A DNA stretch of 64,000 nt, taken from assembly GCA_902624185.1 (NCBI GenBank), contig CACNWU010000003.1:1-64000 (forward strand), in the 5' to 3' direction. A program made the position numbers and the translations under genes. A model generated the notes under the pieces. It worked only from the letters and a program-made list of their open reading frames with translations. It did no database searches and was not told the DNA's origin. Numbering within the stretch: the stretch's first letter is position 1; each line of letters opens with the position of its first letter. This document shows, one piece after another, positions 33,987 to 63,616 of the stretch. This DNA comes from an uncultured Pelagibacteraceae bacterium (GTDB lineage Bacteria > Pseudomonadota > Alphaproteobacteria > Pelagibacterales > Pelagibacteraceae).

Positions 33987-35381
33987 CTATAAATTTTTAG
34001 TTATATCTTCAGTCATTTTTTTTGCATCAGCAAATAACATTAATGTATTCTCTTTATAAAAAAGATCATTGTCAATACCGGCATATCCTGGCGACAGGCT
34101 TCTTTTTACAAAGAGCACTGATTTACATTTTTCTACATCTAAAACTGGCATACCATAAATTGGGCTTTGAGGATCAGTTTTTGCCACTGGATTTGTAACA
34201 TCATTAGCACCAATTACAAAAGCAACATCTGCATTAGCAAAATCATTATTTATTTCCTCTAACTCGAATACCTCGTCGTAAGGAACATTTGCCTCTGCTA
34301 ATAAAACGTTCATATGTCCAGGCATTCTTCCAGCCACTGGATGAATTGCATAAGAAACTTTAATATCATTTTTTTTTAATGTATCTACCATTTCTCTTAA
34401 AGCATGTTGTGCTTGTGCAACTGCCATACCATATCCAGGTACAATAATCACTGATGAAGCATTTTTCATAAGAAATGCTGCATCGTCTGCATTTCCACTT
34501 TTAACTGGTTTTTGTTCTTTATTTTGATTATTAGATGTTTGTTCTGTTGCACCGAAACCTCCCAAAATTACATTAAAGAAAGATCTATTCATTCCTTTAC
34601 ACATTATATAAGAAAGAATTGCACCTGAGGAACCAACAAGAGCACCAGTGATAATTAGTGCTGTATTTTCTAAAGTAAAACCTATTCCAGCAGCAGCCCA
34701 ACCAGAATATGAATTTAGCATTGATATAACCACTGGCATGTCTGCGCCTCCTATAGGAATTATTAACAAGAAGCCTATTAAAAAAGAAACAGTAATTAAT
34801 ATCCAAAATAAATTTGATGATTGTGAAACACATAATAAATAGGTCAAGACAATTATTGAAATAAGTATCAATGCATTCAATAAATGTTGACCTTTAAAAG
34901 TTATCGGTGCTCCAGACATAATTCCTTGAAGTTTTAAGAATGCAATAACTGAGCCTGAAAAAGTAATTGCACCTACAGCAGCACCAATTGACATTTCAAT
35001 TAAGCTAGCAAGTTTAATATTTCCTGGTTCCCCCAGATTAAATGCCCCTGGATTTACAAAAGCTGATATTGCTACAAACACAGCAGCTAATCCTACAAGA
35101 CTATGAAAGCCTGCAACTAATTCAGGCATAGCTGTCATTGGAATTTTGTACGCTATGAATGCTCCAATCAAACCACCCACTAATAAAAAAACTAAAACAA
35201 AAATAAATCCTGTTGAAAAGTTACCTACTGATAAAAAAGTTACCGATACAGCAATAACCATACCTATGATTCCAAATAAATTTCCTTTTCTTGAAGTTTC
35301 TGGTGATGATAGACCTCTTAATGCAAGAATAAACAATACCCCTGATAATAAATAAAAAATTGCTGAAAGATTAGCTGACAT
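33987..35381 (-). CDS. pntB: NAD(P) transhydrogenase subunit beta
   Basis: Membrane proton-pumping transhydrogenase subunit with the NADP(H)-binding domain III. 464 residues: about nine membrane helices (LSAIFYLLSGVLFILALRGL onward) and a C-terminal Rossmann domain from about residue 290 with VIIVPGYGMAVAQAQHALREM, YAIHPVAGRMPGHMNVLLAEANVPYD, DVAFVIGANDVTNPVAKTDP and VKRSLSPGYAGIDNDLFY. Makes NADPH from NADH using the proton gradient. Last of the pntAA-pntAB-pntB unit; its start shares one base with pntAB. Confidence 0.97.
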   Translation of the reverse strand: MSANLSAIFYLLSGVLFILALRGLSSPETSRKGNLFGIIGMVIAVSVTFLSVGNFSTGFIFVLVFLLVGGLIGAFIAYKIPMTAMPELVAGFHSLVGLAAVFVAISAFVNPGAFNLGEPGNIKLASLIEMSIGAAVGAITFSGSVIAFLKLQGIMSGAPITFKGQHLLNALILISIIVLTYLLCVSQSSNLFWILITVSFLIGFLLIIPIGGADMPVVISMLNSYSGWAAAGIGFTLENTALIITGALVGSSGAILSYIMCKGMNRSFFNVILGGFGATEQTSNNQNKEQKPVKSGNADDAAFLMKNASSVIIVPGYGMAVAQAQHALREMVDTLKKNDIKVSYAIHPVAGRMPGHMNVLLAEANVPYDEVFELEEINNDFANADVAFVIGANDVTNPVAKTDPQSPIYGMPVLDVEKCKSVLFVKRSLSPGYAGIDNDLFYKENTLMLFADAKKMTEDITKNL

Positions 35382-35689
35382 TATTTATCTTTCTTCTTTT
35401 TTTTATACATTGCCAACATTCTTTGAGTTACTAAAAACCCACCAAAAATATTAATTGCAGCCAGTGTTATTGCTAAGTAGCCATAAATGCTTGAAAAAGT
35501 AAAAACCTCATTATCGTTACTTGCTAGTGCTGCTATTATGGCTCCAACAATTATTACTGATGAAATTGCATTTGTTACAGACATCAAGGGTGTATGCAAA
35601 GATGGCGTAACACTCCAAACAACATAGTATCCAACAAATATTGATAATATAAAAATACTTAGTCTAAAAATAAACGGGTCAATTTCCAT
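35381..35689 (-). CDS. pntAB: NAD(P) transhydrogenase alpha subunit, membrane part
   Basis: Second half of the split alpha subunit, forming part of the transmembrane proton channel. 102 residues with three to four hydrophobic helices (FIFRLSIFILSIFVGYYVVW; VTNAISSVIIVGAIIAALAS; YGYLAITLAAINIFGGFLVT). The WSVTPSLHTPLMSVTNAISSVI text with the conserved HTPLMSVTNAIS signature is diagnostic. A split alpha subunit is typical of alphaproteobacteria such as Rhodospirillum rubrum; E. coli has a fused PntA. Confidence 0.96.
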   Translation of the reverse strand: MEIDPFIFRLSIFILSIFVGYYVVWSVTPSLHTPLMSVTNAISSVIIVGAIIAALASNDNEVFTFSSIYGYLAITLAAINIFGGFLVTQRMLAMYKKKKKDK

Positions 35690-35691
35690 AA

Positions 35692-36780
35692 TTATGTAAT
35701 TAAAGTTTGTTTTATAATTTCATCCTCTAGATTTATGTTTAATTTTTTGTTTTCTTTATCATACAAATTTGTAACAAAATTAAATACATTTTTTGCGTAA
35801 AGATTCGATGCTGAAGTTGGTAACTTATTAAGAATATTTGTCTCACCCATTATTTTAACACCATTTTTTTCAATTAATTGATCTACTTTTGTAAAAGAAG
35901 TATTTCCACCCTGAACTGCTGCTAAGTCATAGATTACTGAACCAGGCATCATATTTTCAATCATACTATCTTTAATAATAATTGGAGCTTTTTTTCCAGG
36001 AATTAGAGCTGTGCAAATAACTATGTCTATTTTTTTTAAGGTTTCAGCTAACAGTTCTTCTTGTTTTTTTTTAAATTCATCTGATGTTTCTTTTGCGTAT
36101 CCACCTGCTGTCTCAAGATTTTCTGATCCTTCAACTGTTAAAAACTTTCCACCAAGACTCTCAACCTGTTCTTTTGAGGCCATTCTAACATCAGTCGCAA
36201 ATACGATTGCACCCATTCTTTTTGCAGTTGCTATAGCTTGTAAACCAGCAACACCAGCTCCAACAACTAAAACCTTTGCAGCAGGAACTGTTCCTGCAGC
36301 TGTCATCATCATAGGAATTGCCTTCTCAAATTTTGCAAACGATTCTATTACGGCTTTATAACCTGCTAAATTTGCTTGAGATGAAAGAATATCCATCGAT
36401 TGTGCTCGTGTTATTCTTGGAAGTAATTCCAATGAAAAATTATTAATTTTTTTCTTTATTAAGACATCTATTTTTTCTTTATTGAGATAGGGATTTAAAA
36501 TGCCAATTAAATTTTGATTTTCTTTAAAATATGAAAGTTTTTCATCAGAAGGTAAACCGATTTGAATGATAATATCTGCAGCATCAACAATTTTTTTTTC
36601 ATCTTCTAATATAACTACTCCTAATTCCTTAAAACTTTCATCACTAAAGCCTAGATGAGCCCCATAATTTTCCGTAAGAGAAATTTCAAATCCACTAGAT
36701 ATATATTTTTTGGCTATATCAGGAGTGATAGCAATTCTCTTCTCAATATCTAAATTTTCTGAAATTGAAACAATCTTCAT
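35692..36780 (-). CDS. pntAA: NAD(P) transhydrogenase alpha subunit, NAD-binding part
   Basis: Soluble domain I binding NAD(H). 362 residues. Seen: the N-terminal E..n.E.R.A.tPd pattern (ISENLDIEKRIAITPDIAKK), IGILNPY, RITRAQSMDILSSQANLAGYKAV, MMTAAGTVPAAKVLVVGAGVAGLQAIATAKR (Rossmann GAGVAG), VICTALIPGKKAP and YDLAAVQGGN. 2 bp from pntAB. Upstream is the tiny cytochrome oxidase subunit gene. Confidence 0.96.
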   Translation of the reverse strand: MKIVSISENLDIEKRIAITPDIAKKYISSGFEISLTENYGAHLGFSDESFKELGVVILEDEKKIVDAADIIIQIGLPSDEKLSYFKENQNLIGILNPYLNKEKIDVLIKKKINNFSLELLPRITRAQSMDILSSQANLAGYKAVIESFAKFEKAIPMMMTAAGTVPAAKVLVVGAGVAGLQAIATAKRMGAIVFATDVRMASKEQVESLGGKFLTVEGSENLETAGGYAKETSDEFKKKQEELLAETLKKIDIVICTALIPGKKAPIIIKDSMIENMMPGSVIYDLAAVQGGNTSFTKVDQLIEKNGVKIMGETNILNKLPTSASNLYAKNVFNFVTNLYDKENKKLNINLEDEIIKQTLIT

Positions 36781-36789
36781 AAAAGTTTA

Positions 36790-36900
36790 CTATAGTAAGA
36801 ATAATGCCATTAAAACTAAAACTACTACAACCGCGACAGTTCCCCACAATACAAATTTGGTAAATTTATCCCAAGTTTTTTTATGGTCTTCATTATCCAT
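36790..36900 (-). CDS. aa3-type cytochrome c oxidase subunit IV-like mini-protein
   Basis: A 36-residue protein read from the minus strand: ATG at 36900, stop TAG at 36790. It starts MDNEDHKKTWDKFTKFVLWG and continues with a single membrane helix of valines and leucines (VAVVVVLVLMALFLL). This fits the bacterial aa3-type oxidase subunit IV family (a short charged N-terminus with an H...tw..F.k pattern plus one helix). Such genes in other alphaproteobacteria also lie near pntA. It lies between rpmJ (5 bp) and pntAA (9 bp). The other oxidase subunits are not in the window. Confidence 0.8.
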   Translation of the reverse strand: MDNEDHKKTWDKFTKFVLWGTVAVVVVLVLMALFLL

Positions 36901-36905
36901 AAAAA

Positions 36906-37031
36906 TTATTTTTGTCTGGCTTTAAATTTTGGATTAGTTTTATTAATTATGTAAACTCTTCCCCTTCTTCTGACAAGTTTAGAGTTTAAATCTCTTTTCT
37001 TAATTGATTTTAAAGAACTTTTTATTTTCAT
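36906..37031 (-). CDS. rpmJ: 50S ribosomal protein L36, cysteine-free type
   Basis: 41 residues starting [20 protein letters not shown] and ending in NPKFKARQK. The [11 protein letters not shown] core matches alphaproteobacterial L36, in which the zinc-binding Cys3-His of E. coli L36 is lost. The frame is open further upstream to an ATG at 37088, but that reaches into the 5S rRNA gene, so the ATG at 37031 is chosen. It begins 13 bp after the 5S 3' end with no terminator between, so it is probably cotranscribed with 5S. Confidence 0.94.
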
Positions 37032-37042
37032 AATTTTTATAA

Positions 37043-37158
37043 ATGCCGGCAACGTCCTACTCTTCCATGTCTTAAGACAAAGTACCATCGGCGCAGAAAG
37101 GCTTGACTTCCGAGTTCGGAATGGGATCGGGTATAACCCTTTCGCAATAATTACCGGC
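37043..37158 (-). rRNA. rrf: 5S ribosomal RNA, not in an rRNA operon
   Basis: Recognised on the minus strand by the conserved core CCCGATCCCATTCCGAACTC, then GGAAGTCAAGCC, CGCCGATGGTACT and GGAAGAGTAGGACG. The 5' end GCCGGTAA pairs with TTGCCGGC at the 3' end (helix I); length about 114-116 nt. No 23S or 16S gene lies on either side: rpmJ follows and a sugar epimerase gene precedes. An own promoter sits exactly upstream. SAR11 genomes are reported to have 5S separated from 16S-23S by hypervariable region HVR2, which fits the right flank. Confidence 0.95.
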
Positions 37159-37164
37159 GGAAGT

Positions 37165-37192
37165 TTTATACCTTATTAATAAATATTGTAAA
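37165..37192 (-). promoter_or_regulatory. 5S rRNA promoter
   Basis: On the minus strand TTTACA (37192-37187) and TATAAA (37170-37165) with a 16-bp spacer; the -10 ends 6 bp before the first base of helix I of 5S RNA at 37158. The fit of spacing, hexamers and RNA 5' end makes this the best promoter in the window. It also shows that 5S is transcribed independently. Confidence 0.75.
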
Positions 37193-37216
37193 CTAACTTT
37201 TAATAGAAAAACTTAG

Positions 37217-38107
37217 CTAATTTTTAGGGTTTTTTTTTAAAAACTGATGAATGTAATCCCTCAGATTAATTTTACCAAAATTTTTATGAACCTTGTTTGA
37301 TAAACTCATATTTGTTAGAGCCGAAGCATATCTCTCACCTTTTCTTGGGGCAAGCAACTTTACTTCAGTCTTAAATAATTTTGCAACTTCTAAAATAGAG
37401 AAACTTTTTTTATTTGATATACTATAATACCTGCACTGATTTTTTTTCCAAGCCTTAAAACAAACCTCAACTGTATCTTTAATATGAGTAAAACGTCTTG
37501 ATTGTGATCCGGGCTTGACGACTGGTAAAGGTTTATTTTTTAAGTAATGGTCCTCAAATATTCCTATTACAGTTGCCATGCTACCTCTACTAATTTGTTT
37601 TGGTCCGTAAACATTATAAAAAAAAATTACTTCATATTTAAAATTAAACCATTTTTTTAAATTTTCTAAAAGTTCAAGATTTTTTGCTTTTGTGAATGCA
37701 TAAGGTGATAAATTTTTATCTTCTCCTTTATTACCTAAAGAGGCTGATGTAGCAGAATAAATTAATTTAATCTTATTTTTGAGACAAAAATCAAATATAG
37801 CATTTGTGCCAATACTATTAGATTGAATACAATTATTCATCTGTAAAAAACTTTGGTAAATTCTGGAAAATTCACCAAAATGAAAAATCGAAATAATATT
37901 GTTTTTAAATTTATCTAAAACTCTATTTACATCTTTAGTATGTGATTTTAAGTATCTTATTCTTGAATCTTTAATATGATTTTTTTTAGATCCTGAAGAA
38001 TAGTCATCAAGACTAATAATTCTAAAATTAGTTTTTTCTATAAGCAATTCAATTAAATTTGCACCCACAAAACCTGCTCCACCAGTAACAACGATAATTT
38101 TTTTCAT
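37217..38107 (-). CDS. NAD-dependent nucleotide-sugar epimerase/dehydratase
   Basis: Extended short-chain dehydrogenase of the UDP-glucose 4-epimerase type. 296 residues. NAD-binding GGAGFVGANLIELL at the N-terminus, catalytic Ser/Thr in YSATSASLG, YAFTK (YxxxK pair), and substrate-domain text RRFTHIKDTVEVCFKAW. Substrate is not readable. A GalE-like or a dedicated hexose/heptose epimerase is possible. It is the first polysaccharide gene next to 5S; 58 bp separate it from the 5S gene. Confidence 0.85.
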   Translation of the reverse strand: MKKIIVVTGGAGFVGANLIELLIEKTNFRIISLDDYSSGSKKNHIKDSRIRYLKSHTKDVNRVLDKFKNNIISIFHFGEFSRIYQSFLQMNNCIQSNSIGTNAIFDFCLKNKIKLIYSATSASLGNKGEDKNLSPYAFTKAKNLELLENLKKWFNFKYEVIFFYNVYGPKQISRGSMATVIGIFEDHYLKNKPLPVVKPGSQSRRFTHIKDTVEVCFKAWKKNQCRYYSISNKKSFSILEVAKLFKTEVKLLAPRKGERYASALTNMSLSNKVHKNFGKINLRDYIHQFLKKNPKN

Positions 38108-38121
38108 ATTTTCAATAATAA

Positions 38122-39054
38122 TTACTTTAAATTCAAAAAACTTTTAAAAGTTAAATCAAAACCCTTATCTAAATTAATTTTTGATTTCCAACCGTAACTT
38201 TTGGCTAAATTCACATTAAGTTTCTTTCTAGGAGTACCGTTGGGTTTAGATTTATTATATCTAATTTTCAACTTTATTTTAAGCTTTTTCATAATAAATT
38301 CTAAGTAAGATTTAATAGTTTTTTCTTCACCAGACCCTATATTTATTAAACTATGTTTAGTTTTTTTTTTTAAAAAAAATTCACATGCATCTGCTAAATC
38401 ATCTACATACATAAGTTCTCTTCTTGCTTTTCCATTTCCCCAAATTTCAATATACTTTTTATTACCTATTTTTGCATTATAGGCTTTTAAAATTAAAGCT
38501 GGATAAAAATGTGAAGTATCTAAATCATAATTATCATTAGGGCCATACAAATTTGTCGGCATTAAACATACATAATCTAAATTATATTGTTTGTTGTATG
38601 CCTCGCACATTTTTAAACCTGCAATTTTCGCAACCGCATACGACTCGTTTGTTGATTCTAATTTACCATCTAATAAATAACTTTCTTTGATAGGTTGTTT
38701 TGAAAACTTAGGATAAATACAACTGGATCCTAAAAAAATTAATTTTTTTACTCCTACTTTAAACGAGGAGTCTATTACATTTGTTTGAATCATTAAATTT
38801 TGATAGATAAAATCTGCAGAATAAATATCATTTGCATGAATACCACCAACTTTAGCTGCAGCAATTATAACGAAGTCTGGTTTTGTTTTTTTTAAAAATT
38901 TTAAAGTACTATTTTGATCCAACAAATTAAGTTTTTTTCGATTTTGTATAATTAGATTTCTATAACCTTTTTTTTTAAAATATCTTAATATTGCAGAACC
39001 AACCATCCCTTTATGACCAGCTATAAAAATTTTACTATTTTTATTTAATTGCAT
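38122..39054 (-). CDS. fcl: GDP-L-fucose synthase
   Basis: Epimerase-reductase making GDP-L-fucose from GDP-4-keto-6-deoxymannose with NADPH. 310 residues. Seen: IFIAGHKGMVGSAILRYF (GxxGxxG), AAAKVGGIHANDIYSADFIY, FLGSSCIYPKFSKQPIKESYLL with the catalytic Ser, YAVAKIAGLKMCEAYNKQY (YxxxK), PTNLYGPNDNYDLDTSHFYPALI and ELMYVDDLADACEFFL. Overlaps gmd by 14 nt, a classic gmd-fcl pair, so the glycan probably contains L-fucose or a derivative. Confidence 0.95.
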   Translation of the reverse strand: MQLNKNSKIFIAGHKGMVGSAILRYFKKKGYRNLIIQNRKKLNLLDQNSTLKFLKKTKPDFVIIAAAKVGGIHANDIYSADFIYQNLMIQTNVIDSSFKVGVKKLIFLGSSCIYPKFSKQPIKESYLLDGKLESTNESYAVAKIAGLKMCEAYNKQYNLDYVCLMPTNLYGPNDNYDLDTSHFYPALILKAYNAKIGNKKYIEIWGNGKARRELMYVDDLADACEFFLKKKTKHSLINIGSGEEKTIKSYLEFIMKKLKIKLKIRYNKSKPNGTPRKKLNVNLAKSYGWKSKINLDKGFDLTFKSFLNLK

Positions 39055-40090
39055 TTAAATATTGATATTCAGACTTAATCATTTCATCAATTAAAGATTG
39101 TAAATTTTCTTTTGGCTTCCATTTCAATATTTTTCTTGCTTTTTTTGCATCACCTAACAAAGTATTTACATCCAAAGGTCTAAAATAATTTTTATCACAC
39201 TCTATTATAGAGTTACCTTTAACATCATACGCTTTTTCTTTAAGGCCTTTTCCTCTCCAGAAAATTTTTAAATCTAATTTTTTTGCAGTAATATTTATGA
39301 ATTCTTTAATAGAATACTGTCTTCCAGTTGCAATCACAAAATCACCTGGTTTTTTTTGCTGTAGAATTTTCCACATTGCTAAACAATAATCTCTAGCATG
39401 CCCCCAGTCTCTTTTTGCATTTAAATTTCCTAAAAAAAGTTTTTTTTGTTTGCCCTCTTTTATTTTGCATAATGCGGAAACTATTTTTTTGGTTACAAAA
39501 GTTTCTCCTCTTCTTGGACTTTCATGATTAAATAAAATACCGTTAGATGCAAAAATATTATAAGCCTCTCTATAATTCCTTGTAATCCAATGAGCATACA
39601 GTTTAGCAACACCATAGGGGCTTAAAGGATAAAAATCAGTTTTTTCATTCTGAGGTATACTTTGGACTTTTCCGTACATTTCTGAAGTTCCTGCTTGATA
39701 AAATTTTGTTCTCTTTTCCATTTTGTGAAACTTAATCGCCTCTAAAATTCTAAGTGCACCAAGTGCGTCTGCATTGGCTGTATATTCTGGTACCTCAAAA
39801 GACACAGCAACATGAGATTGAGCTGCAAGATTATATATTTCATCTGGTTTAGTTTTTTTGATAATATGTGAAACTGATGATGAGTCTGTTATATCTCCAT
39901 AATGAAGACGAAATTTATAATTTTTTTCATGTGGGTCTTGATAAATATGATCTACTCTATAAGTGTTAATGCTCGATGATCTTCTTTTAACACCATTAAC
40001 AATATAACCTTTTTTAAGTAATAACTCTGCTAAATATGAACCATCTTGACCAGTGATACCAAAAATTAGAGCAATTTTTTTTTTAATCAT
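39041..40090 (-). CDS. gmd: GDP-mannose 4,6-dehydratase
   Basis: First enzyme of the GDP-fucose route, also of GDP-rhamnose/perosamine routes. 349 residues. Seen: ALIFGITGQDGSYLAELLLKKGY, VKRRSSSINTYRVDHIY, YNLAAQSHVAVSFEVPEYTA, AGTSEMYGKVQSIPQNE with the catalytic Thr/Ser, PLSPYGVAKLYAHW (YxxxK), FNHESPRRGETFVTKKI and RDWGHARDYCLAMW. The ATG at 40090 gives the standard N-terminus. Upstream is a 60-bp gap before the FkbM gene. Confidence 0.96.
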   Translation of the reverse strand: MIKKKIALIFGITGQDGSYLAELLLKKGYIVNGVKRRSSSINTYRVDHIYQDPHEKNYKFRLHYGDITDSSSVSHIIKKTKPDEIYNLAAQSHVAVSFEVPEYTANADALGALRILEAIKFHKMEKRTKFYQAGTSEMYGKVQSIPQNEKTDFYPLSPYGVAKLYAHWITRNYREAYNIFASNGILFNHESPRRGETFVTKKIVSALCKIKEGKQKKLFLGNLNAKRDWGHARDYCLAMWKILQQKKPGDFVIATGRQYSIKEFINITAKKLDLKIFWRGKGLKEKAYDVKGNSIIECDKNYFRPLDVNTLLGDAKKARKILKWKPKENLQSLIDEMIKSEYQYLNAIK

Positions 40091-40150
40091 TGTTTATTTT
40101 AATAAACTATTTACTTCATTCAGTCAAAGAAGTTAATTAATTTTAAAGTA

Positions 40151-40876
40151 TCATTTTTGATATTCATATATGTATTCAAAAGTTTTTCTAAATGCCATTT
40201 TATATTTATAAACTTGTTTAAAATGATTTTTTTTTAATAGTTGATGAATATCATTAAATTTATAATTTTTGATTAACATATCGTGATAATGGTGCTCAAA
40301 CATAATTAGTTTTACTCTGTTTAAATCGTTTTTTAAACCCAAAAGAACATTGAGTTCATAACCTTCTGTATCTATCTTTAAAAAATCAATATTCAAAATT
40401 TTATTTTCTGAAATATAATCTGATAGAGTAATTTGATTTATAGTTATATCTTTAAAAATTAACTCTTTGTTCAAATTAAAAAGAAATCGAGATTTCTTTT
40501 TGAAATAATTAGAATTTGTATTGATGTCATTGATAGTAGAGGAAGAACTTTCACTAACTTGTTTCATATTTATTTCTTTTTTTTCATTACCTAAGGCATA
40601 ATTTTCAATTGATATATTTGTGTACCTAAATTTTTTTTTAATTTTAATTAAATTTTTTTTAAGTTCACTAAAGTTTATAGCACTTGGTTCAAATGAAAAT
40701 ATGTCTATAATTTTAAAATGATTTAAGAATAACTTTAAAGTTTCTCCCTTGTGAGCGCCTATATCAAAAAAACACTTAAATTCTGAATAACCTTTACTTT
40801 TAAGAAATTTAAAAAGTTTTAGTTGATAATAATAATCAAAAAAACTTAATAATTTTAAAGAAATATATTTAATCAT
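40151..40876 (-). CDS. FkbM-family methyltransferase
   Basis: SAM-dependent O-methyltransferase family found in polysaccharide clusters. 241 residues. Seen: the SAM-binding start FFDIGAHKGETLKLFL (DxGxxxGxxT/L), FSFEPSAINFSELKKNL, ALGNEKKEINM, and IDFLKIDTEGYELNVLLG, a hallmark of FkbM proteins. Likely methylates a sugar hydroxyl on the glycan. Start overlaps the upstream membrane-protein stop by 4 nt. Confidence 0.9.
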   Translation of the reverse strand: MIKYISLKLLSFFDYYYQLKLFKFLKSKGYSEFKCFFDIGAHKGETLKLFLNHFKIIDIFSFEPSAINFSELKKNLIKIKKKFRYTNISIENYALGNEKKEINMKQVSESSSSTINDINTNSNYFKKKSRFLFNLNKELIFKDITINQITLSDYISENKILNIDFLKIDTEGYELNVLLGLKNDLNRVKLIMFEHHYHDMLIKNYKFNDIHQLLKKNHFKQVYKYKMAFRKTFEYIYEYQK

Positions 40877-42552
40877 TCTGGTATAAAAATATATCTATTT
40901 TTAGAAACCTTTTTAACCTTTGATTTTAACTCTATATCGCAATTATTTATTTTATTTTCACAATTTTCAAAGTTTGAAATACGCTTTTTCATTACTTTAT
41001 CAATTCTAAAATGACTCTCGTTTATATAATAAAACGTGTTGATTATAGGACTGTATTTATATTGTTTTATCTCATTATCCAATCTATTAAAATTTCTTGA
41101 TATAAATATGGCAGTAACTATTAATAAAAAAATAACTAATCTTTTATTTAAATTTTTAAAATTAACATTGTATTTTGACATAATTAAAGAAACTGGGAAA
41201 AAAATCAAAAAGGCTATCAAAACATATCCTCCATATCTTAGCGCAGGGTGATTCAAAAACCATTCAAATAATAATAAAATGATAATAAAAAAAATAAAAA
41301 ATATTTTTTTGTTAAATTTTAAAATTATCTTTTTCTTTTGATAAAATAGTACCAAAGAAATAATAGATAAAACAATTAGGCCTAATAAAAAATCTGATAC
41401 CTTATTAAAAAAATATAAATCAAACCAGTTTATTACCCAATTAAAATTTGTCAGATACAGTTCCGGATTATCTATTCGAAAGTTAGGAGTCAGGCCAGCT
41501 TTAGACCACAATTGATAATGATTATTCATTTTAATAGCTTCAGCTGTGCCTAATGACCAATCAAAATTGTCGAAACAGGTTTGAAAAACTGGATATATCA
41601 AACATCCAGTATTTAAAAAATAAATCAATAAATTTAAAGAAAATAAAATAATAAAAATGTAAAATAATTTATTTTGAAAAAATTCTAAAACTATGTTCAA
41701 TTTTTTCCGTGTATAAAAAATCCATAATAATGGAATAAAAAAGATTATATATAAAATATAAAAAGCTTTTAAAGATATTATAATTCCTAAAGTAATTAAA
41801 ATACAATTAATATTTATTTTCAAATCTTTTTTAAAATCTAAAAGACTTATTAATTGTAACAAAAATATAAAAACTAATATTTGTGCAGATCTATCTGTAC
41901 CATGCTCTTGTAATCTGTAAAAAAAAATATTTATAAAAGCAAAAAAAAGTAGGGCAAGATAAAAAGTATAATTTATATTTTTTTTTTTTAAGTCTGTAAA
42001 AATTTTCGAAATTAATATTAAATTTGAAAATCCCATTATAAGTAAAGAAGGTATATAAAATGAATAATATTTTATTACTGGAAGATAAAATAAAGAATTT
42101 AGATAAAAAATGGATGATGGAGTTCGAAATCCATGATTGAATTCTCCTATGCCAATCTGCATTGAATATTGAGTTAGATAATAACTATAAGGAAAATGAT
42201 AATAGGGAAAATCATCATGAGTTTTGAAAATTAGTAGTGCTAAAAATAATATCGAAAAATTTATAAAAAAAATGAAAATATTAAATTTTTTTTTAATATA
42301 TCGATAATAGAAAAAAAATGATACTAAGCCTAGGAAAACAATAATCATATTGTGTGTATATCCATGGGGTAAAAATATGTGCGATATATAGGAATATAGA
42401 ATTAAAAAAAATATTCCAGTCAGACCAGTAAAGCCTAGTTGGTCAAAAGAAGTTCTTCTATTAAATATTCTCTCAAACAACAAACCAAATCCTAAAACTG
42501 CTATTAAAATTATTTTGTAGAATATAAAAAGTGTGATGATATTAAATGTCAT
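40873..42552 (-). CDS. Polytopic membrane protein, possibly GT-C glycosyltransferase
   Basis: 559 residues with about eleven or twelve hydrophobic helices and a hydrophilic C-terminal tail of about 80 residues. After the third or fourth helix a periplasm-facing loop has KTHDDFPYYHFPYSYYLTQ, an acidic DD motif of the sort GT-C enzymes use to bind the lipid-linked donor; HGTDRSAQ follows near the middle. I cannot assign an exact family; an O-antigen polymerase (Wzy) or lipid-linked sugar transferase role would fit the context. Coupled to the FkbM gene by a 4-nt overlap. Confidence 0.7.
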   Translation of the reverse strand: MTFNIITLFIFYKIILIAVLGFGLLFERIFNRRTSFDQLGFTGLTGIFFLILYSYISHIFLPHGYTHNMIIVFLGLVSFFFYYRYIKKKFNIFIFFINFSILFLALLIFKTHDDFPYYHFPYSYYLTQYSMQIGIGEFNHGFRTPSSIFYLNSLFYLPVIKYYSFYIPSLLIMGFSNLILISKIFTDLKKKNINYTFYLALLFFAFINIFFYRLQEHGTDRSAQILVFIFLLQLISLLDFKKDLKININCILITLGIIISLKAFYILYIIFFIPLLWIFYTRKKLNIVLEFFQNKLFYIFIILFSLNLLIYFLNTGCLIYPVFQTCFDNFDWSLGTAEAIKMNNHYQLWSKAGLTPNFRIDNPELYLTNFNWVINWFDLYFFNKVSDFLLGLIVLSIISLVLFYQKKKIILKFNKKIFFIFFIIILLLFEWFLNHPALRYGGYVLIAFLIFFPVSLIMSKYNVNFKNLNKRLVIFLLIVTAIFISRNFNRLDNEIKQYKYSPIINTFYYINESHFRIDKVMKKRISNFENCENKINNCDIELKSKVKKVSKNRYIFIPE

Positions 42553-42713
42553 TATTCAAAATTAGTGTTAGTTTAAGAATTCTAATAGTTATATACTTTA
42601 CACATCTTTATTTTGCGAATAAAAAAATTATTTTTAATTAATATAACCTTTTTATGATATATTTTTTATACAAATTTTTATTTAGTAATATTAAAATTCT
42701 GTAGTAATAATCT

Positions 42714-43385
42714 ATGAAAAATTTAACTCTTGTAATTCCAGCAAAAAAAGAAAAAGAGTCATTGCCGAATGTCCTAGAGGAGCTCAAAAAATACGAATTT
42801 AAAATATTGATAGTTTTAGAAGAAAACGATATTGAAACAATTGAAGCAATAAAACAATTTGATTGTGAAATATTATATCAAAAAAGTAAAGGTTACGGTG
42901 ACGCTTTAATTCAAGGCATAAATAATGTTAAAACAGAACTGTTTTGTATATTTAATGCTGATGGTTCTTTTAATCCCGAAGAATTACCGGCGATGCATGA
43001 TAAAATCAATAAAGATAATTTTGATTTTGTTTTTGCAAGTCGATATGAAAAAAATTGTTCTAGTGAAGATGACACTTGGGTGACCTTTGTTGGAAATTTT
43101 ATATTTTCTAAAATTGGAAATATTTTTTTTAATTTAGAAATAAGTGACATTTTATATACCTATGTTATTGGTAAAACAATTCTTGCTCAACAACTAAATC
43201 TAAAGAGGAAAGATTTTGTATTTTGTGTTGAATTACCTATTAAAGCCAAAAGACAAAATCTAAAAATCACAACATCAAAATCAAATGAGAGAGCTAGAAT
43301 TGGAGGTAAAAAAAAAGTAAATGCGATTAAAGATGGATTTTTAATACTAATTGCGATGATAAAATTATTTTTTAGAAGTAATTGA
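42714..43385 (+). CDS. Family 2 glycosyltransferase (dolichol-phosphate-mannose-synthase-like)
   Basis: 223 residues, GT-A fold of the polyprenyl-phosphate hexose synthase type. Seen: LTLVIPAKKEKESLPNVLEE, ILIVLEENDIETIEAI, KGYGDALIQGINNV, CIFNADGSFNPEELPAMHDK (the N-A-D replacing the usual DxD) and VFASRYEKN. There are no clear membrane helices apart from a short C-terminal hydrophobic run (DGFLILIAMIKLFF). Likely transfers a sugar to polyprenyl phosphate. Plus strand, alone among minus genes; overlaps the next gene's end by 21 nt tail to tail. Confidence 0.85.
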   Translation: MKNLTLVIPAKKEKESLPNVLEELKKYEFKILIVLEENDIETIEAIKQFDCEILYQKSKGYGDALIQGINNVKTELFCIFNADGSFNPEELPAMHDKINKDNFDFVFASRYEKNCSSEDDTWVTFVGNFIFSKIGNIFFNLEISDILYTYVIGKTILAQQLNLKRKDFVFCVELPIKAKRQNLKITTSKSNERARIGGKKKVNAIKDGFLILIAMIKLFFRSN

Positions 43386-44414
43386 TTTGAGCTTTTTGTT
43401 TAAAATAAAATAAGTTACACAATATAAAAAAATAGCCGCAAAAATAAGTGATAATTGATAAATAGTGTGTTTAAAATCTAATGAACTCATTAAAATAATA
43501 AATAAATTAAATGAATTAATTATTAAACTTGAAGATACATTAAGCACTATTTTTTTTTTATTCTCAAATTTAAATTTTAAATATAAAAAAATTAGTTGAT
43601 GTAAATGATTATTATCAGCTGAAGTTGGAGATTTATCACTTAATATTTTTCTAGTAAGAGAAAATAAATTTTCCAAACACGGGTACCATAAAAACAAAAT
43701 TATGGTGTAGGGTGAAATAGCAACTTGATAATTTGGAGATGTTGTTACTTCAAAATTATAAATTGAAATTAATATAAACCCAAGTATAAATCCAAGAAGG
43801 TAAGATCCTCCATCACCTAAATAAAATTTATTAAAATAATTTAATAATAATAAAATAGAAAAAGAAAATATCAAAAAAATCTGATTTTTTTGGCTTATTA
43901 AATCAGAGTCTATTAAATTATACTGAGTAAGAAAAATTATGATAATTAAAAAATAACCTATCAATAAACCATTAAGACCATCTATAAAATTTGAGCCATT
44001 TATCAAAATCATCAAACAAAAAATTGTAAATAAATGACTTAAAGAACTACTTTCAAATATCCTATCAATTAATTCTATTCGTGTTGGAGTTACTTGAAGA
44101 TTAGAAATAAATACAAATAAAGAAACAGCAAATAACTGTAAAATAAATCTTTTCTTTGGTGATGATAAAATTTTTGAGTCTGATAAAAATCCAATGAAAA
44201 AAATTAAACATCCTATTAATGTAAAAAAAAAGTTTTTTTCTAAGAATATTGTCAATAATATTGGTAGGATTAAAATGCCCCCTATTAAAGGTATTTTTTT
44301 TTCATTAAAAAATTTTTGATGACTTTCTCCTGAATAATTTGGTAAAAAATTCTTTTTATTTGCAATAAAAACTGATGGCACAATAATCGATACATATACA
44401 ATAAATTCAATCAT
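43365..44414 (-). CDS. WecA/MraY-family initiating glycosyl-phosphate transferase
   Basis: Integral membrane enzyme that places a sugar-1-phosphate on undecaprenyl phosphate to begin O-antigen/capsule synthesis. About 349 residues from the ATG at 44414 (MIEFIVYVSIIVPSVFIANK). The longer frame would start at 44447, but the start chosen gives a 4-nt ATGA overlap with the upstream gene. Seen: FFNEKKIPLIGGILILP, IGFLSDSKIL (first aspartate motif), NGSNFIDGLNGLLIGYF, and FYLGDGGSYLLGFILGF (D-box); about ten membrane helices. The sugar is unknown (GlcNAc, or a trideoxy sugar). Confidence 0.9.
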   Translation of the reverse strand: MIEFIVYVSIIVPSVFIANKKNFLPNYSGESHQKFFNEKKIPLIGGILILPILLTIFLEKNFFFTLIGCLIFFIGFLSDSKILSSPKKRFILQLFAVSLFVFISNLQVTPTRIELIDRIFESSSLSHLFTIFCLMILINGSNFIDGLNGLLIGYFLIIIIFLTQYNLIDSDLISQKNQIFLIFSFSILLLLNYFNKFYLGDGGSYLLGFILGFILISIYNFEVTTSPNYQVAISPYTIILFLWYPCLENLFSLTRKILSDKSPTSADNNHLHQLIFLYLKFKFENKKKIVLNVSSSLIINSFNLFIILMSSLDFKHTIYQLSLIFAAIFLYCVTYFILNKKLKSITSKK

Positions 44415-45157
44415 TGATTTTTCTTTAAATAGTTTAGGCCCAAACAAATCAAAAAATAAAACGACTTAACAAAACTGAATTCTAAATATTTATGATAAAC
44501 TCTAAATCCATCTAACAATTTTTGTACTACCGAGCTGGACAAAGAATTTCTAGTTTTTCTCCAAAATGATAGATTTTTATCTAATCCACCTATTGCTATA
44601 TCTTGTTTTAAAATAGACAGCCATAAAACAAAATCTTCTTTCGTTTTTAAGTTTACAAATTTTATATTTTTAGAAAAAATTTTTTTATCTAAAATAACTG
44701 TTGATAAACCTATGTCACAGGATGTCAAAATATCTTTATAGCTTTTGAAAGTTTTAGCTTTACGTTGTCGAATAAATTGATTTTCTTCATCAATTATATC
44801 ATAAGAGGTATGAGAAATTTTAAAATTCCTATCAATCATAAAATTAATTTGAGTTTCAATCTTTTCCTTTTTCCAATAATCATCTGCATCCAAAAAACAA
44901 ATATATTTACCATTAGAATATTTTATACCCTTGTTTCTTGATAATCCTGCTCCGATATTTTGCTCATTATTAATGATTTTAATTTTATTGTTTGATTTAT
45001 ATTGTTTTGTCAAAAAATCTAATTCAAATTTATCTTCATCATCATAGATGATGATTATTTCAATCTTGGGGTAGGTTTGCTCAAGAACTGAAGATATTGA
45101 CTTATTAATATATCTGATTTTTTTATAATATGGAATTATAACACTTACTAGATCCAT
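44411..45157 (-). CDS. Family 2 glycosyltransferase
   Basis: 248 residues, GT-A. Seen: VSVIIPYYKKIRYINKSISSVLEQ, IEIIIIYDDEDKF, NIGAGLSRNKGIKYSNGKYICFLDADDYW (DxD as DAD), EKIETQINFM and EDFVLWLSILKQDIAI. Typical of CpsJ/WaaV-like sugar transferases of O-antigen clusters. Transferred sugar unknown. The stop overlaps the WecA-like start by 4 nt. The start at 45157 lies 127 bp from a plus-strand GT4. Confidence 0.9.
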   Translation of the reverse strand: MDLVSVIIPYYKKIRYINKSISSVLEQTYPKIEIIIIYDDEDKFELDFLTKQYKSNNKIKIINNEQNIGAGLSRNKGIKYSNGKYICFLDADDYWKKEKIETQINFMIDRNFKISHTSYDIIDEENQFIRQRKAKTFKSYKDILTSCDIGLSTVILDKKIFSKNIKFVNLKTKEDFVLWLSILKQDIAIGGLDKNLSFWRKTRNSLSSSVVQKLLDGFRVYHKYLEFSFVKSFYFLICLGLNYLKKNQ

Positions 45158-45284
45158 TAAATGATAACAATTTTTAAAATTAGTTTTTAAAATACAATAT
45201 ATGAATTAAAATAATTTTGTGTATTATTTTTATTTTATATTATTATATTAATCAAATCGCAGCTATTAATAACATTAAATTTAA

Positions 45285-46373
45285 ATGAAAAAAAAAGTCA
45301 TAATGTTTATGCCTTCAATTGAAGGTGGGGGTGTAGAAAAAAATTTTTTTATTGTTGCCAATTTTCTGACAAAATTTAAAGCTGTTTTAGTAATTACTAT
45401 TTCAAAAAAATACAAGGGACTGTTCTTAAAGAAAGTTAAATTTATCACTTTGAAATCTGAATTTTGGGATAAATTGAGTAGAAGATTAAAATATTTTTTA
45501 GCTCTTTTTTTATTAATCAAAGAAATTATAAATGATCGTAATGTTATTGTTTTCTCATTCCAGGCTAATATCTATGCAATTTTAATTTGTAAGTTGTTTG
45601 GGATTAAAATAATTGCTAGGTCTAATTCTGCACCATTTGGATGGTCACAAAATTTTTTAAAAAAGATTTTGTTTAAATTTTTTTTAAATATTTCGGATAA
45701 AGTTATGGTTAATTCTTTTGAATTTAAAAAAGATCTGAAAAAATATTTTAGTGTAAATTCAATTTGTATTTATAATCCATTAAATCAAAAAGAAATTAAA
45801 AAAAAATCTAGAATTAAAGTTAAAAAAATATTCAAAAAGAAATCTTTAAAAATATTGAATATTGGAAGATTTACTGATCAAAAAGATCAGATTACTCTCT
45901 TGAAAGCACTAAATATTTTAAAGAAAAAAATAAAATTTGAAGCTGTCATAATGGGTAGAGGGATACTCAAAGATGAATTGAAAAATTTTATACTGAAAAA
46001 CAATTTAAGTAAAAATGTAAAATTAAAAGAATTTACCAAAAATCCTTTTCCAATTATTAATCAAGCTGATGTTTTTATTTTATCGTCATCTTATGAAGGA
46101 TTGCCAAATGTGCTGTTAGAAAGTCTTGTACTTAAAAAGTTTATAATATCTAGCGATTGCAGAACTGGTCCTAAAGAAATTTTACTTAATGGAAAAGGAG
46201 GATTATTATTTAAAGTTGGTGATTACAAAAAATTATCAGAATTAATAATATTTTTTCTCTCAAATAAAAAAAAATGTAAAATTATGCTTAGAAAATCTAT
46301 TAACGCTTTAGACAGATTTGATTATAATAAAAATCTTAAAAAATACGTAAAATTAATTAATTCTCTCGACTGA
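45285..46373 (+). CDS. Family 4 glycosyltransferase
   Basis: 362 residues, GT-B fold. Seen: KVIMFMPSIEGGGVEKNFFIVANFL (glycine-rich acceptor loop), IIARSNSAPFGW, LKILNIGRFTDQKDQITLLKALNIL (donor-side start), FVLSSSYEGLPNVLLESLVLKK-like text (VFILSSSYEGLPNVLLESLV; ExxxxxxxE motif), and SDCRTGPKEILLNGKGG. Close in pattern to PglA/WaaG-type transferases. Plus strand; convergent with the next GT4 gene. Confidence 0.9.
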   Translation: MKKKVIMFMPSIEGGGVEKNFFIVANFLTKFKAVLVITISKKYKGLFLKKVKFITLKSEFWDKLSRRLKYFLALFLLIKEIINDRNVIVFSFQANIYAILICKLFGIKIIARSNSAPFGWSQNFLKKILFKFFLNISDKVMVNSFEFKKDLKKYFSVNSICIYNPLNQKEIKKKSRIKVKKIFKKKSLKILNIGRFTDQKDQITLLKALNILKKKIKFEAVIMGRGILKDELKNFILKNNLSKNVKLKEFTKNPFPIINQADVFILSSSYEGLPNVLLESLVLKKFIISSDCRTGPKEILLNGKGGLLFKVGDYKKLSELIIFFLSNKKKCKIMLRKSINALDRFDYNKNLKKYVKLINSLD

Positions 46374-46384
46374 TATTAGACTAT

Positions 46385-47494
46385 TTAAATGTCTAAATTA
46401 TTAAACATTTTTTCAACTCTTTTTTCATAAGTATAATTTTTTGAAAGAAAAAAATTATTTTTTGAAATAATTTTTCTTAATTTAAAATTTAGTGAAAGTT
46501 TATTTATTGCTAATCTCCATTTTTGTACATTTAAATCCTCAACAAAAATACAATTTTTTTTATTTATTAAAATTTCTCTTAAAACTGGAAGTGATGATGC
46601 GATTATAGGTTTTGTAGATCCGAGGTAATCAAATAATTTCATAGGTGAAGTGTATTGCGCTATATTTCCAAAATTACCCGCTGCAGAAATTTCTTTTTCA
46701 TAAGGTAGGATCAAAATATCCATTTTGCTCATTAAATCTTTAACTTTTTTGTAAGGTATAAATTCTTGAAAAAAAATATTTTTATGAAATGTCTTCTTTC
46801 TTTTTAAACTTATATTTTCTTTGGTACCACCAAAAATATAATATTCATTTTTTCTATCTAAATGAGACAATCTAAATAAAAAATCTAAACCTCTAGATTT
46901 ATTCACTAGCCCAAAATACCCAATTTTAAGATTATTTTTTTCTAAAACCGTTGGATATCTCGATCTTAAATTTGAGGCACTACTCAAAATGGTGAAATTT
47001 TTTGGTTGAATTTGATAATTTTTGAAAAAATTTTCTTTTATCGAATGAGTTATAAAAATTAAATTGATTATTTTTTTTGAATTTAAAATTTTAAGATTTT
47101 TAAAAATAAAATTATTTATTCTTCCTTCAAACTCTAAACCTGTATGAATTTCAAAAATAACTTTTTTTCTCAAAAGAACTAAAATAAATAATGTAAAATA
47201 ATTTCTAGTTATAAAAACTTTAGGATTAAATTTTAATCCAATAATTATTGAATACAATGAAAACAGATAATACTTAAATCCTCTTGGAAACGTATTAAAA
47301 TTTTTAACTTTGATTATTTTGAAATTTTTTTTTATTCCATAATGCTCCGAAACACTTTTTTTAAGTCCAGTATTTGGGGTTATCAAAATTACCTCTCCAA
47401 TCGATTTTGCAATTTGAGAGCACATATTTACAACTTGTAAACTATTTGCATTATGAGATGGAATTGAAGAATTAAATAAATAAACTATTTTCAT
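46385..47494 (-). CDS. Family 4-like glycosyltransferase
   Basis: 369 residues. Seen: NSSIPSHNANSLQVVNMCSQ, VFEIHTGLEFEGRINNFI, KIGYFGLVNKSRGLDFLF, YIFGGTKENISLKRK and LPYEKEISAAGNFGNIAQYTSPMKLFDYLGSTKPIIASSL, the last matching the GT4 C-terminal donor-binding pattern. A lower-similarity GT4; resembles in pattern the gene at 48462-49541 (shared YTSPMKLFDYL / YNSPLKMFDYL), so the two are likely paralogues. Last of the long minus-strand unit. Confidence 0.85.
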   Translation of the reverse strand: MKIVYLFNSSIPSHNANSLQVVNMCSQIAKSIGEVILITPNTGLKKSVSEHYGIKKNFKIIKVKNFNTFPRGFKYYLFSLYSIIIGLKFNPKVFITRNYFTLFILVLLRKKVIFEIHTGLEFEGRINNFIFKNLKILNSKKIINLIFITHSIKENFFKNYQIQPKNFTILSSASNLRSRYPTVLEKNNLKIGYFGLVNKSRGLDFLFRLSHLDRKNEYYIFGGTKENISLKRKKTFHKNIFFQEFIPYKKVKDLMSKMDILILPYEKEISAAGNFGNIAQYTSPMKLFDYLGSTKPIIASSLPVLREILINKKNCIFVEDLNVQKWRLAINKLSLNFKLRKIISKNNFFLSKNYTYEKRVEKMFNNLDI

Positions 47495-47505
47495 TTTAAA
47501 TAACT

Positions 47506-48465
47506 CTATTTAGAGCTATATTTTTTATACCAATTAATTGTTTTCATAATTCCTTCTTGCCAACCGATAAAATTTTTAAATTTTGTAACACTTAAAATTT
47601 TTTTATTATTTCCATGGGTTTTCAAAATGTCTGCTTTTTGTAAAGAAACTTTTTTGATTTTGGGATTAATCCCATTTTTTTTCATAAAGTTAATAATTTT
47701 TTTTAAATTAATGGGTTTATTTGAACATATGTTAAATATATCATTTCTCTTTAATTTCCTGTGTTTAAATAATAAAATTTCAAGAATTTTAACAACATCT
47801 CCTATATAGGTAAAGTCTCTTTCATGATTACCAAAATTAAAAAGTTTAAATTCTTTTTTTTTATAAAATGAACTTATAAATTTCAGCATCATCATATCAG
47901 GTCTTCCCCACTCTCCATAAACAGTAAAAAATCTCAAACCAGTCAATTTTAAATTATAATAATTATTATAAATTGAGCTAATTTCCTCATTAATTTTTTT
48001 GGTTAATGAATACATGTTTTTGGGCAAAATTTTTTCATTTTCTTTAAGAGGAAAATTTTTATTTTCTCCATAAACGGAGCTAGACGATGCATAAAATAAT
48101 CTTTTAATTTTAAATTTCTTACAATTCTCAATAATATTAAAAAAACCATTAATATTTGCCTCTATATATTTTCTTGGATGATCTATAGAATATCTAACTC
48201 CTGCTTGTGCTGCTAAATTAAAGACAAAATCAAATTTATTTTTTTTAAAAATTTTCTCTAATTCCTTGCTATTATTAATATCTAGTTTTTTAAATCTAAA
48301 ATTCTTATTTTTTTTAAGTAATTTTAATCTTTTTAACTTTAAATTTTTATCATAATAATTGTTAATGTTGTCTATACCGATAATTTTTATTTCTTTTCTT
48401 TTAAGTAAATGATTACTTAAACTAAAACCTATAAATCCAACTGAACCTGTAATTAATATTTTCAT
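47506..48465 (-). CDS. UDP-glucuronate 4-epimerase-like SDR protein
   Basis: 319 residues. NAD-binding ITGSVGFIGFSLSNHLLKRK, FNLAAQAGVRYSIDHPRKYIEANI, YASSSSVYGENKNFPLKENEK with the catalytic serine, MYSLTKKINEE (YxxxK) and RFFTVYGEWGRPDMMMLKF, the last a signature of UDP-glucuronate epimerases. NHERDFTYIGDVV is the substrate-domain motif. May make UDP-galacturonate, or act on a sugar made by the dehydrogenase at 49564. Overlaps the upstream GT4 gene by 4 nt. Confidence 0.85.
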   Translation of the reverse strand: MKILITGSVGFIGFSLSNHLLKRKEIKIIGIDNINNYYDKNLKLKRLKLLKKNKNFRFKKLDINNSKELEKIFKKNKFDFVFNLAAQAGVRYSIDHPRKYIEANINGFFNIIENCKKFKIKRLFYASSSSVYGENKNFPLKENEKILPKNMYSLTKKINEEISSIYNNYYNLKLTGLRFFTVYGEWGRPDMMMLKFISSFYKKKEFKLFNFGNHERDFTYIGDVVKILEILLFKHRKLKRNDIFNICSNKPINLKKIINFMKKNGINPKIKKVSLQKADILKTHGNNKKILSVTKFKNFIGWQEGIMKTINWYKKYSSK

Positions 48466-49541
48466 GCGTTTAAAATTATTTTTTTTACTCTTTTATTCCA
48501 TGTAAATTTTTTTGCTGTTTCTTTAGACTTTTTTTGTAATTTAATCATTTTGTATTTTTTTTTAATTAGATCATTTAAAGCCTTTTCCCATAACTTTAAA
48601 TTATATTTTTGAACTAAAATAGCGTTTTCTTGATTCTTTAAAACTTCACATATTCCATCTAATTTTGATGAAATAATAATTTTCCCTGCAGCTAAATAAT
48701 CAAACATTTTTAGTGGAGAGTTATAATTTGATATATTAACACTCTTTGATCTACCATATTGAATTGGAGCACTTGGTAAAAGCAGTACATCAGATTTAGA
48801 AAGAATCGTCGGAACTTTTTTATAATTTACGTATCCATGAATTTTCACATTATTTGATTTGTTATATTGTTTCTTTAATGGATCACCATAAATATGAAAA
48901 TCTAAATTGTTGAATTTTTCTGCTAATCTTAAAACTAATTCTACACCTTTTCCTTCATGAAAACTTCCTACGTAGCTTACTGATTTTATTTTAGTAACTA
49001 ATTTTGATTTTGAGAAATTATCAATATCCACACCATCATGTAAGATTAGTGTTCTTTTTTTTGAAACATTAAATTTTTTTTCTAAAGCTTTTGAAATAAA
49101 AATTATTTTCTTAATATATCGAGAATTTATAAAATTTAAGTTAATTAATATAAATTTTGTAATAGATTTTAATTCTGAGTGAATTTCGATAAAGTGGTTA
49201 ATTTTATATATGGAAAGAAATACACTTGAAATTAAACTTCTGGTAATAACTATATCAGGGCTATGATTTTGTTTAATATAATTTGCAGTTTTAATACCAA
49301 AATTAAGTCTTCCGAAAAAATTAATAATTTTATTTCTTAATAGAGATTTAATTTCAAATTTTTCTTTTCCCCGTAACAAAAAATCACTCTTAAGTTTTTT
49401 GTAAGAAATTTTTTTTTCAAATGGTAACAACAAAATCAGCTTTGAATTATTCCTAATAAATGCGTCACACATTTTGATTACTTGGTGTGTATACGCACTT
49501 TTATTATTTAGTCTAGTCTCAGCAATATAAATTGTTTTCAT
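48462..49541 (-). CDS. Family 4 glycosyltransferase
   Basis: 359 residues. Seen: YIAETRLNNKSAYTHQVIKMCDAF (acceptor side), FIEIHSELKSITKFI, FIFISKALEKKF-type text (IIFISKALEKKFNVSK), VSYVGSFHEGKGVELVLRLAEKF, HIYGDPLKKQ, and YNSPLKMFDYLAAGKIIISSKL with nearby GICEVLKNQENAIL. A GT-B transferase of an unknown sugar. 22 bp before the dehydrogenase gene (upstream). Paralogue of the gene at 46385. Confidence 0.87.
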   Translation of the reverse strand: MKTIYIAETRLNNKSAYTHQVIKMCDAFIRNNSKLILLLPFEKKISYKKLKSDFLLRGKEKFEIKSLLRNKIINFFGRLNFGIKTANYIKQNHSPDIVITRSLISSVFLSIYKINHFIEIHSELKSITKFILINLNFINSRYIKKIIFISKALEKKFNVSKKRTLILHDGVDIDNFSKSKLVTKIKSVSYVGSFHEGKGVELVLRLAEKFNNLDFHIYGDPLKKQYNKSNNVKIHGYVNYKKVPTILSKSDVLLLPSAPIQYGRSKSVNISNYNSPLKMFDYLAAGKIIISSKLDGICEVLKNQENAILVQKYNLKLWEKALNDLIKKKYKMIKLQKKSKETAKKFTWNKRVKKIILNA

Positions 49542-49563
49542 TTATTAATTAATAAAAAATAAA

Positions 49564-50757: not shown

Positions 50758-50807
50758 TCAAATCCTTTTTTCATCAAAAAATTAATTCTATAACTATTCT
50801 CACAATT

Positions 50808-51797: not shown

Positions 51798-51799
51798 AA

Positions 51800-53158: not shown

Positions 53159-53176
53159 AAAAAAAATTAATCAAAA

Positions 53177-53365
53177 TTAATTTTTTGATATTCTGCTTAC
53201 TAATTTAGAAATTTTGTGGTCTTGCTTATTTATATCTTTCAAAATTTTTTTAGCCTCAATTGGAGCAAACTTCATTGCCAATTTTAATAAATTCATCCAA
53301 TTAATATTGTTTTTTTTTCTAGCGTTACTAATTTGATTAATCAGCTTTTCGTAATTATTCTTCAT
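53177..53365 (-). CDS. Small helical protein of unknown function
   Basis: 62 residues from ATG 53365 (a longer reading from 53383 adds 6 residues and deepens overlap with pseB). Sequence: highly charged helices, KLINQISNARKKNNINWMNLLKLAMKFAP, then EAKKILKDINKQDHKISKLV. Overlaps the pseB-like stop by 11 nt. I recognise no domain. The regular pattern, NWMNLLKLAMKFAPIEAKKI, suggests a conserved element rather than chance, so it may bind the PseB-like or SCBP product; this is inference from position only. Confidence 0.6.
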   Translation of the reverse strand: MKNNYEKLINQISNARKKNNINWMNLLKLAMKFAPIEAKKILKDINKQDHKISKLVSRISKN

Positions 53366-54362: not shown

Positions 54363-54365
54363 TAA

Positions 54366-56288: not shown

Positions 56289-56350
56289 TATTTTTAATAT
56301 ATTTGAAAATGATATATTTAATTATTATCTTATTTTGGACAAAAACTGTA

Positions 56351-56356
56351 TATAAT
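56351..56356 (+). promoter_or_regulatory. Candidate -10 element for the neuB operon
   Basis: Consensus TATAAT, preceded by TGTA, in the 79-bp gap between the divergent SpsF-like and neuB genes, 11 bp before the neuB ATG. No good -35 hexamer at 16-18 bp. Weak. Confidence 0.35.
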
Positions 56357-56367
56357 TAATCTTATTC

Positions 56368-59359: not shown

Positions 59360-59360
59360 G

Positions 59361-61758: not shown

Positions 61759-61766
61759 TTAGTATA

Positions 61767-63095: not shown

Positions 63096-63244
63096 ATTAT
63101 AACTTTATTAAATAGCTAAAAACCTTCAAATGAATAAATAAATTGTAATTTATTTAAAGCATATATATTACAATTAAATTAAAAATAAATATGTTTATTT
63201 ATTTTAAGCAATAAACAAAGAAATATTGAATATTTATTAATTTT

Positions 63245-63613: not shown

Positions 63614-63616
63614 AAA

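Follow-up and report, generated by a model that had tools for sequence, protein, structure and literature searches.

The 5S rRNA locus and its neighbors

The window analyzed here, a 64-kb stretch of DNA from an uncultured member of the Pelagibacteraceae, carries a 5S rRNA gene on its minus strand (Table 1). The match to Rfam family RF00001 extends from 37044 to 37158 (E 4e-18), scores far above the gathering score of 38, and comprises the full model, with a terminal helix closed by 7 base pairs. It is the sole 5S match in the source genome, which amounts to 917 kb in 34 contigs and is about 80% complete. Neither 16S nor 23S was found inside the 64-kb window by Rfam search, in agreement with the original prediction of a complete 5S gene without 16S or 23S neighbors. 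The named relatives of pntAA in the window belong to the Pelagibacteraceae, including 'Ca. Pelagibacter ubique' HTCC9565.

Past 5S, the gene order is rpmJ, a 36-aa cytochrome-oxidase-like gene, and pntAA-pntAB-pntB. The start codon of rpmJ follows the 5S end after 12 nt, and this protein gene thus abuts 5S just outside the range 37043-37216 that the original prediction had covered.

Table 1. Features of the 5S rRNA locus within the 64-kb window.
Feature	Position	Strand	Evidence
HVR2 part within the window; the region reaches contig position 85845, the 3' end of 23S	37159..64000	.	gene content; GC 0.239
NAD-dependent sugar epimerase/dehydratase gene, last HVR2 gene ahead of 5S	37217..38107	-	PF01370, E 1.5e-29
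-35 element TTTACA, 16-nt spacer to -10	37187..37192	-	sequence; exact TTTACA in 88/126 loci
-10 element TATAAA, its final base 7 positions ahead of where 5S begins, with 6 nt in between	37165..37170	-	sequence; TATAA conserved in relatives
Predicted transcription start, at the mature 5S 5' end	37158	-	position relative to -10
5S rRNA gene, complete, only copy detected	37044..37158	-	RF00001, 90.3 bits, model 1-120
AT-rich 12-nt spacer between 5S and rpmJ, without terminator; proposed 3' cleavage zone	37032..37043	-	
rpmJ, ribosomal protein L36 (type B), first ORF past 5S	36906..37031	-	PF00444, E 8e-17; NF002021
36-aa gene, aa3-type cytochrome oxidase subunit IV-like	36790..36900	-	PF07835, E 3.5e-12 (first 34 aa); coding-type variation
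pntAA (35692-36780), pntAB (35381-35689) and pntB (33987-35381); transhydrogenase, core-genome flank	33987..36780	-	

The Rfam family RF01810 ('pntA sRNA') matches positions 36843-36904 of the minus strand, almost wholly within the 36-aa gene. Since the length of this ORF is constant in 96 relatives and its variation by codon position (374, 97 and 927 at positions 1, 2 and 3) displays a synonymous excess, RF01810 probably represents a gene that encodes a protein, not an sRNA. Either 5S or rmlB has been named as the annotated gene ahead of the pntA element (Meyer 2009, PMC2704228), and this paper was the sole relevant match for rpmJ together with 5S in the open-licence literature.

Separation of 5S from 16S and 23S

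One full-length 23S copy, the only 23S match in the source genome, is located on the contig of the window (C3) at 85845-88597 of the minus strand, with 16S beside it at 88997-90471 of the same strand. The 3' end of 23S is 48,686 bp upstream of the 5' end of 5S, in the same orientation, and the interval, which lies partly inside the window, contains genes on both strands. Hence 5S does not directly follow 23S in one transcription unit as in a canonical 16S-23S-5S operon, and the both-strand genes of HVR2 exclude a 23S gene just past the window that is continuously transcribed into 5S. The HVR2 genes sampled include sugar epimerases, GDP-mannose dehydratase, a glycosyltransferase and an ABC transporter, and the GC content is 0.239 in the HVR2 part of the window versus 0.298 on the core side. 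The length of HVR2 and the neighbors of 5S differ between strains. The locus had been predicted to form the 5S-side boundary of the hypervariable region HVR2, and the mapping of 23S bears this out: sole copies of 23S and 5S on the same strand flank about 50 kb of strain-variable, low-GC DNA rich in surface-polysaccharide genes, which matches the published layout.

A region of this kind between 23S and 5S was reported for SAR11 in 2007 and again later (PMC2217521, PMC3815206, PMC6018831, PMC7318151). According to the parts of these papers that concern us here, HTCC1062, LD12 and other SAR11 likewise have their sole 5S and 23S flanking a cell-surface region of about 50 kb, which measures 48 kb in HTCC1062 and 54.8 kb in the LD12 isolate, compared with 48.7 kb here; the layout does not differ. 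In the same portions of the published accounts we met no description, for the HVR2 of HTCC1062 or LD12, of a promoter at the mature 5S 5' end, a lost pre-5S stem or a tight spacing between 5S and the next ORF. The split SAR11 rRNA operon is therefore well documented already, and what our comparison would add is the predicted promoter and the likely anatomy of the transcription unit.

Linked and split arrangements were compared in 121 genomes. A 23S and a 5S gene 83-96 bp apart (about 92 bp) on one contig were found in 27 of them, all from the sister family in the same order, which agrees with the single rRNA operon that the relevant part of one study ascribes to subclades IV and V (PMC7318151). 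No surveyed genome of the window's own family has 23S adjacent to 5S; where both genes share a contig (n=4), the gaps are 14.6, 34.8, 45.2 and 48.7 kb and the orientation is always the same. The rRNA genes of the ordinary operon in the sister family and in subclades IV and V are homologous to those described here, but in the sister family the operon differs in its 83-96 bp linkage, its retained pre-5S stem and the lack of a 5S promoter. Mycoplasmas such as M. flocculare (PMC4357767) also have a 5S gene detached from 16S-23S in a reduced, AT-rich genome; this is a likeness of layout in a lineage unrelated to SAR11.

In one genome that consists of a single 1.34 Mb contig and is listed as 100% complete (G012), 5S is present without a 23S match, also under laxer filters, and the same holds for five further genomes that are more than 90% complete. 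Assembly loss, gaps or masking likely account for the absence of 23S matches in these 90-100% complete genomes. Directly past the 23S 3' end, at C3:85827-85844 (locus L074), an 18-bp sequence, TGCACTGAAAAAAATTTT, is nearly invariant in the family. It is complementary to the sequence ahead of 23S, with which it would form a processing stem, and strain-specific HVR2 sequence begins right beyond it.

With regard to the origin of the split, insertion of HVR2 between 23S and 5S predicts exactly what the four same-contig cases display, namely a conserved strand and HVR2 precisely between the two genes. Alternatively, 5S may have moved beside rpmJ, with HVR2 growing or moving in later. A translocated 5S has been published for an Arctic SAR11 genome (PMC12421898), relatives may have 5S before or after the epimerase gene, and no rpmJ was detected in the sister family within up to about 1.8 kb downstream of 5S, although the flanking order of that family may itself be derived. 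We regard such a movement as possible but somewhat doubtful; it is compatible with the mode of expression proposed below.

A conserved promoter at the 5S 5' end

On the minus strand, TTTACA, a spacer of 16 nt, TATAAA and ACTTCC lead directly into the first base of 5S, a G. The -10 element thus ends 6 bp ahead of the RNA 5' end, just as originally predicted. The seventh base after the -10 element is where a sigma-70 start is expected. Counting both strands, the window contains 3 matches to the pattern TT(T/G)ACA-N16-17-TATAA, and a lone promoter site in such AT-rich DNA could be a matter of chance; it is the conservation across relatives that makes it more than this. Conservation was relied upon because a generic sigma-70 scan of the window, which did not list the 5S promoter site, demands the final T of TATAAT.

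We therefore took 126 unique 5S loci from the family to which the window belongs, anchored them at the base that opens the terminal helix, and scored TT(T/G)ACA-N15-18-TATAA ending 4-9 nt before 5S (maximum 11). The full score was reached in 75 of the 126 loci, at least 9 in 119 and 8 in the other 7, counts that do not represent independent events since the loci are related. Dinucleotide shuffles, performed for the first 55 loci, gave a score of 11 in 0.04% and of at least 9 in about 8%. The distance from the -10 end to 5S is 6 nt in 91 loci, 5 in 27, 7 in 5 and 4 in 3, and hence 5-7 nt in 123 of 126. The columns of the hexamers (-35 and the first five positions of -10) are 76-100% conserved, and the ten columns just upstream of -10 are 43-72% conserved. 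A few loci have a weak match to -10 or -35. Taken over the 126 loci, the -35 and -10 elements are conserved, with a sigma-70-like spacing of 15-18 nt and at a fixed distance from the RNA. The sister family, represented by 17 linked loci, scores only 4-7.

In 28 of the 118 loci with enough upstream sequence, the neighboring upstream ORF (150 aa or longer) lies on the opposite strand, so that read-through from this gene cannot supply 5S there. Together with the conserved promoter, this comparison strongly supports the earlier proposition that 5S is expressed separately from 16S-23S.

The sequences around 5S also differ in their potential for pairing. In the sister family, the 30-nt flanks of 5S form the usual precursor stem, pairing with a median of -15.7 kcal/mol; those in the window's family are mostly unpaired (median -4.0 kcal/mol). 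A start at the mature 5S end would leave no 5' arm to pair, and we posit that 5' processing of 5S may have been dispensed with in this family.

Proposed transcription past the 5S 3' end

An ORF on the same strand starts 7-26 nt past 5S in 119 of the 126 loci. The next gene is rpmJ in 77 loci (type A) and the epimerase gene in 42 (type B), with rpmJ following the epimerase gene in most type B loci. The spacers between 5S and the ORF have a GC content of 14%. This distance leaves no room for an intrinsic terminator, and no terminator-like site was found in 35300-37400 of the window. With the ORF so close and such a site lacking, transcription is most simply taken to run on past 5S and into the ORF. 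The link between 5S and an mRNA is not universal, given that an adjacent same-strand ORF start is absent in 7 of the 126 loci. Among the rare arrangements, L029, L045 and L046 have some 860 bp of other DNA between 5S and rpmJ, 5S is divergent from rpmJ in L059, and further loci lack a recognized ORF start directly past 5S; L109, L151 and L153 also belong to this rare class.

The ORF that follows 5S is not preceded by a Shine-Dalgarno sequence, but we attach no special meaning to this: of 29 ORFs checked in the window (29197-63613), just 1 has a GGA-type Shine-Dalgarno sequence in the 20 nt ahead of it, even though the 16S 3' end keeps CCTCC.

Proposed mode of 5S expression

According to our analysis of sequence and conservation, the single SAR11 5S gene at the HVR2 boundary is most probably an independent sigma-70-type unit that forms the 5' leader of an mRNA and is freed by a 3' cut. 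The 16S-23S unit has a promoter of its own, and 5S, 48.7 kb away, would be transcribed from TTTACA-N16-TATAAA. Its transcription would begin no more than one or two bases from the mature 5' end, if not exactly there, and little or no 5' processing would be required. RNA polymerase would then run past 5S into rpmJ, or into the epimerase gene followed by rpmJ. A single cut in the AU-rich spacer, probably by an RNase E-like enzyme, together with trimming would free the mature 5S and leave an mRNA whose leader is very short. Neither a description of the mode of 5S expression in SAR11 nor a report of its 5S transcription start site was found in the open-licence literature.

Transcription from the same promoter might instead stop after 5S by a non-intrinsic mechanism, Rho-type or coupled to an RNase, with rpmJ-pnt expressed from a separate promoter in or near 5S. 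The levels of rRNA and ribosomal protein mRNA usually differ, and most promoters are not reliably recognizable from sequence in this AT-rich DNA, both of which favor such a stop. We nonetheless consider it unlikely in view of the tight 5S-ORF distance in nearly all loci and the lack of a terminator-like site, and an rpmJ promoter within 5S would fail to explain that both rpmJ and the epimerase gene occur as the next gene. Read-through from the upstream HVR2 genes (or 23S), with both 5S ends processed and the promoter-like sequence an accident, is very improbable: chance sites of this kind are common in such AT-rich DNA, and in the window, as in 90 of 118 relatives, the upstream gene is directed towards 5S, commonly 40-70 nt away, but the promoter is kept at its fixed distance far above shuffled expectation, the upstream gene varies between strains and is oppositely oriented in 28 of 118 loci, and the processing stem flanking 5S is missing.

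Under the proposed expression of 5S from its own promoter as an mRNA leader, no cis link between 5S and 16S-23S is left. Across ten genomes from this family, the 16S promoter reads TTGATT-N16-TATAAG; the leader measures about 204-207 nt in nine of these and 184 nt in the tenth. It has the -10 form TATAAG/A and the 16-nt spacer in common with the 5S promoter, and the -35 differs. A shared promoter signature as a sign of co-regulation was dropped for this reason. We found no evidence for a dedicated device that equalizes 5S and 23S, and their balance would have to come from shared sigma-70 regulation or the turnover of unassembled RNA. Since E. coli degrades unassembled rRNA, the default model is that 5S and 23S dosage would be tied by such decay and by shared growth-rate control, and not in cis.

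Apparent exchange of 5S with the hypervariable region

Two gene orders are found among the 126 relatives, epimerase-5S-rpmJ and 5S-epimerase-rpmJ. On a tree of the downstream flank (PntAA, PntAB and PntB; 67 loci), types A and B change 16 times, versus 20.2 times (sd 1.8) with shuffled labels, and are thus scattered nearly at random, with some mixed pairs well supported. On the epimerase tree, A and B change only twice, and on the 5S tree 18 times versus 34.8 times with shuffled labels; these change counts are approximate, as the trees are quick ones of conserved proteins. The scatter on the flank tree and the almost clean separation on the epimerase tree indicate that 5S and the epimerase gene pass from one lineage to another mostly together, as exchangeable boundary cassettes, and HVR2 exchange thus appears to carry 5S along. 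Chimeras from single-cell amplification were rejected as a source of the two orders, since dozens of independent genomes share these junctions.

Exchange of HVR2 through recombination in the rRNA genes or past them has been proposed earlier (Wilhelm 2007, PMC2217521; PMC4033161). The latter work argued that the O-chain cluster of Pelagibacter is exchanged together with ribosomal RNA genes, to which our comparison adds two discrete 5S/epimerase orders scattered over the flank tree in dozens of single-cell genomes.

Implications for the Pelagibacteraceae

Our results offer a concrete model of 5S expression for the most abundant marine bacterial group, in which the promoter would be at the mature end, the stem lost and an mRNA attached at the 3' end. 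The stoichiometry of rRNA without cis-linkage thereby becomes a testable question in a cultured organism, and an essential rRNA gene would travel with a hypervariable surface cassette. More tentatively, we suggest that in marine Pelagibacteraceae 5S could be a primary transcript as in eukaryotes, serve as an mRNA leader and be swapped together with surface-polysaccharide cassettes, a combined reading to which we give slightly less than even chances. If true, the mature 5S 5' end would be a triphosphate transcription start that needs no 5' processing, and a single cut would release 5S from the head of a ribosomal-protein and metabolic mRNA. Strains that exchange their coat would then also exchange a ribosomal RNA gene.
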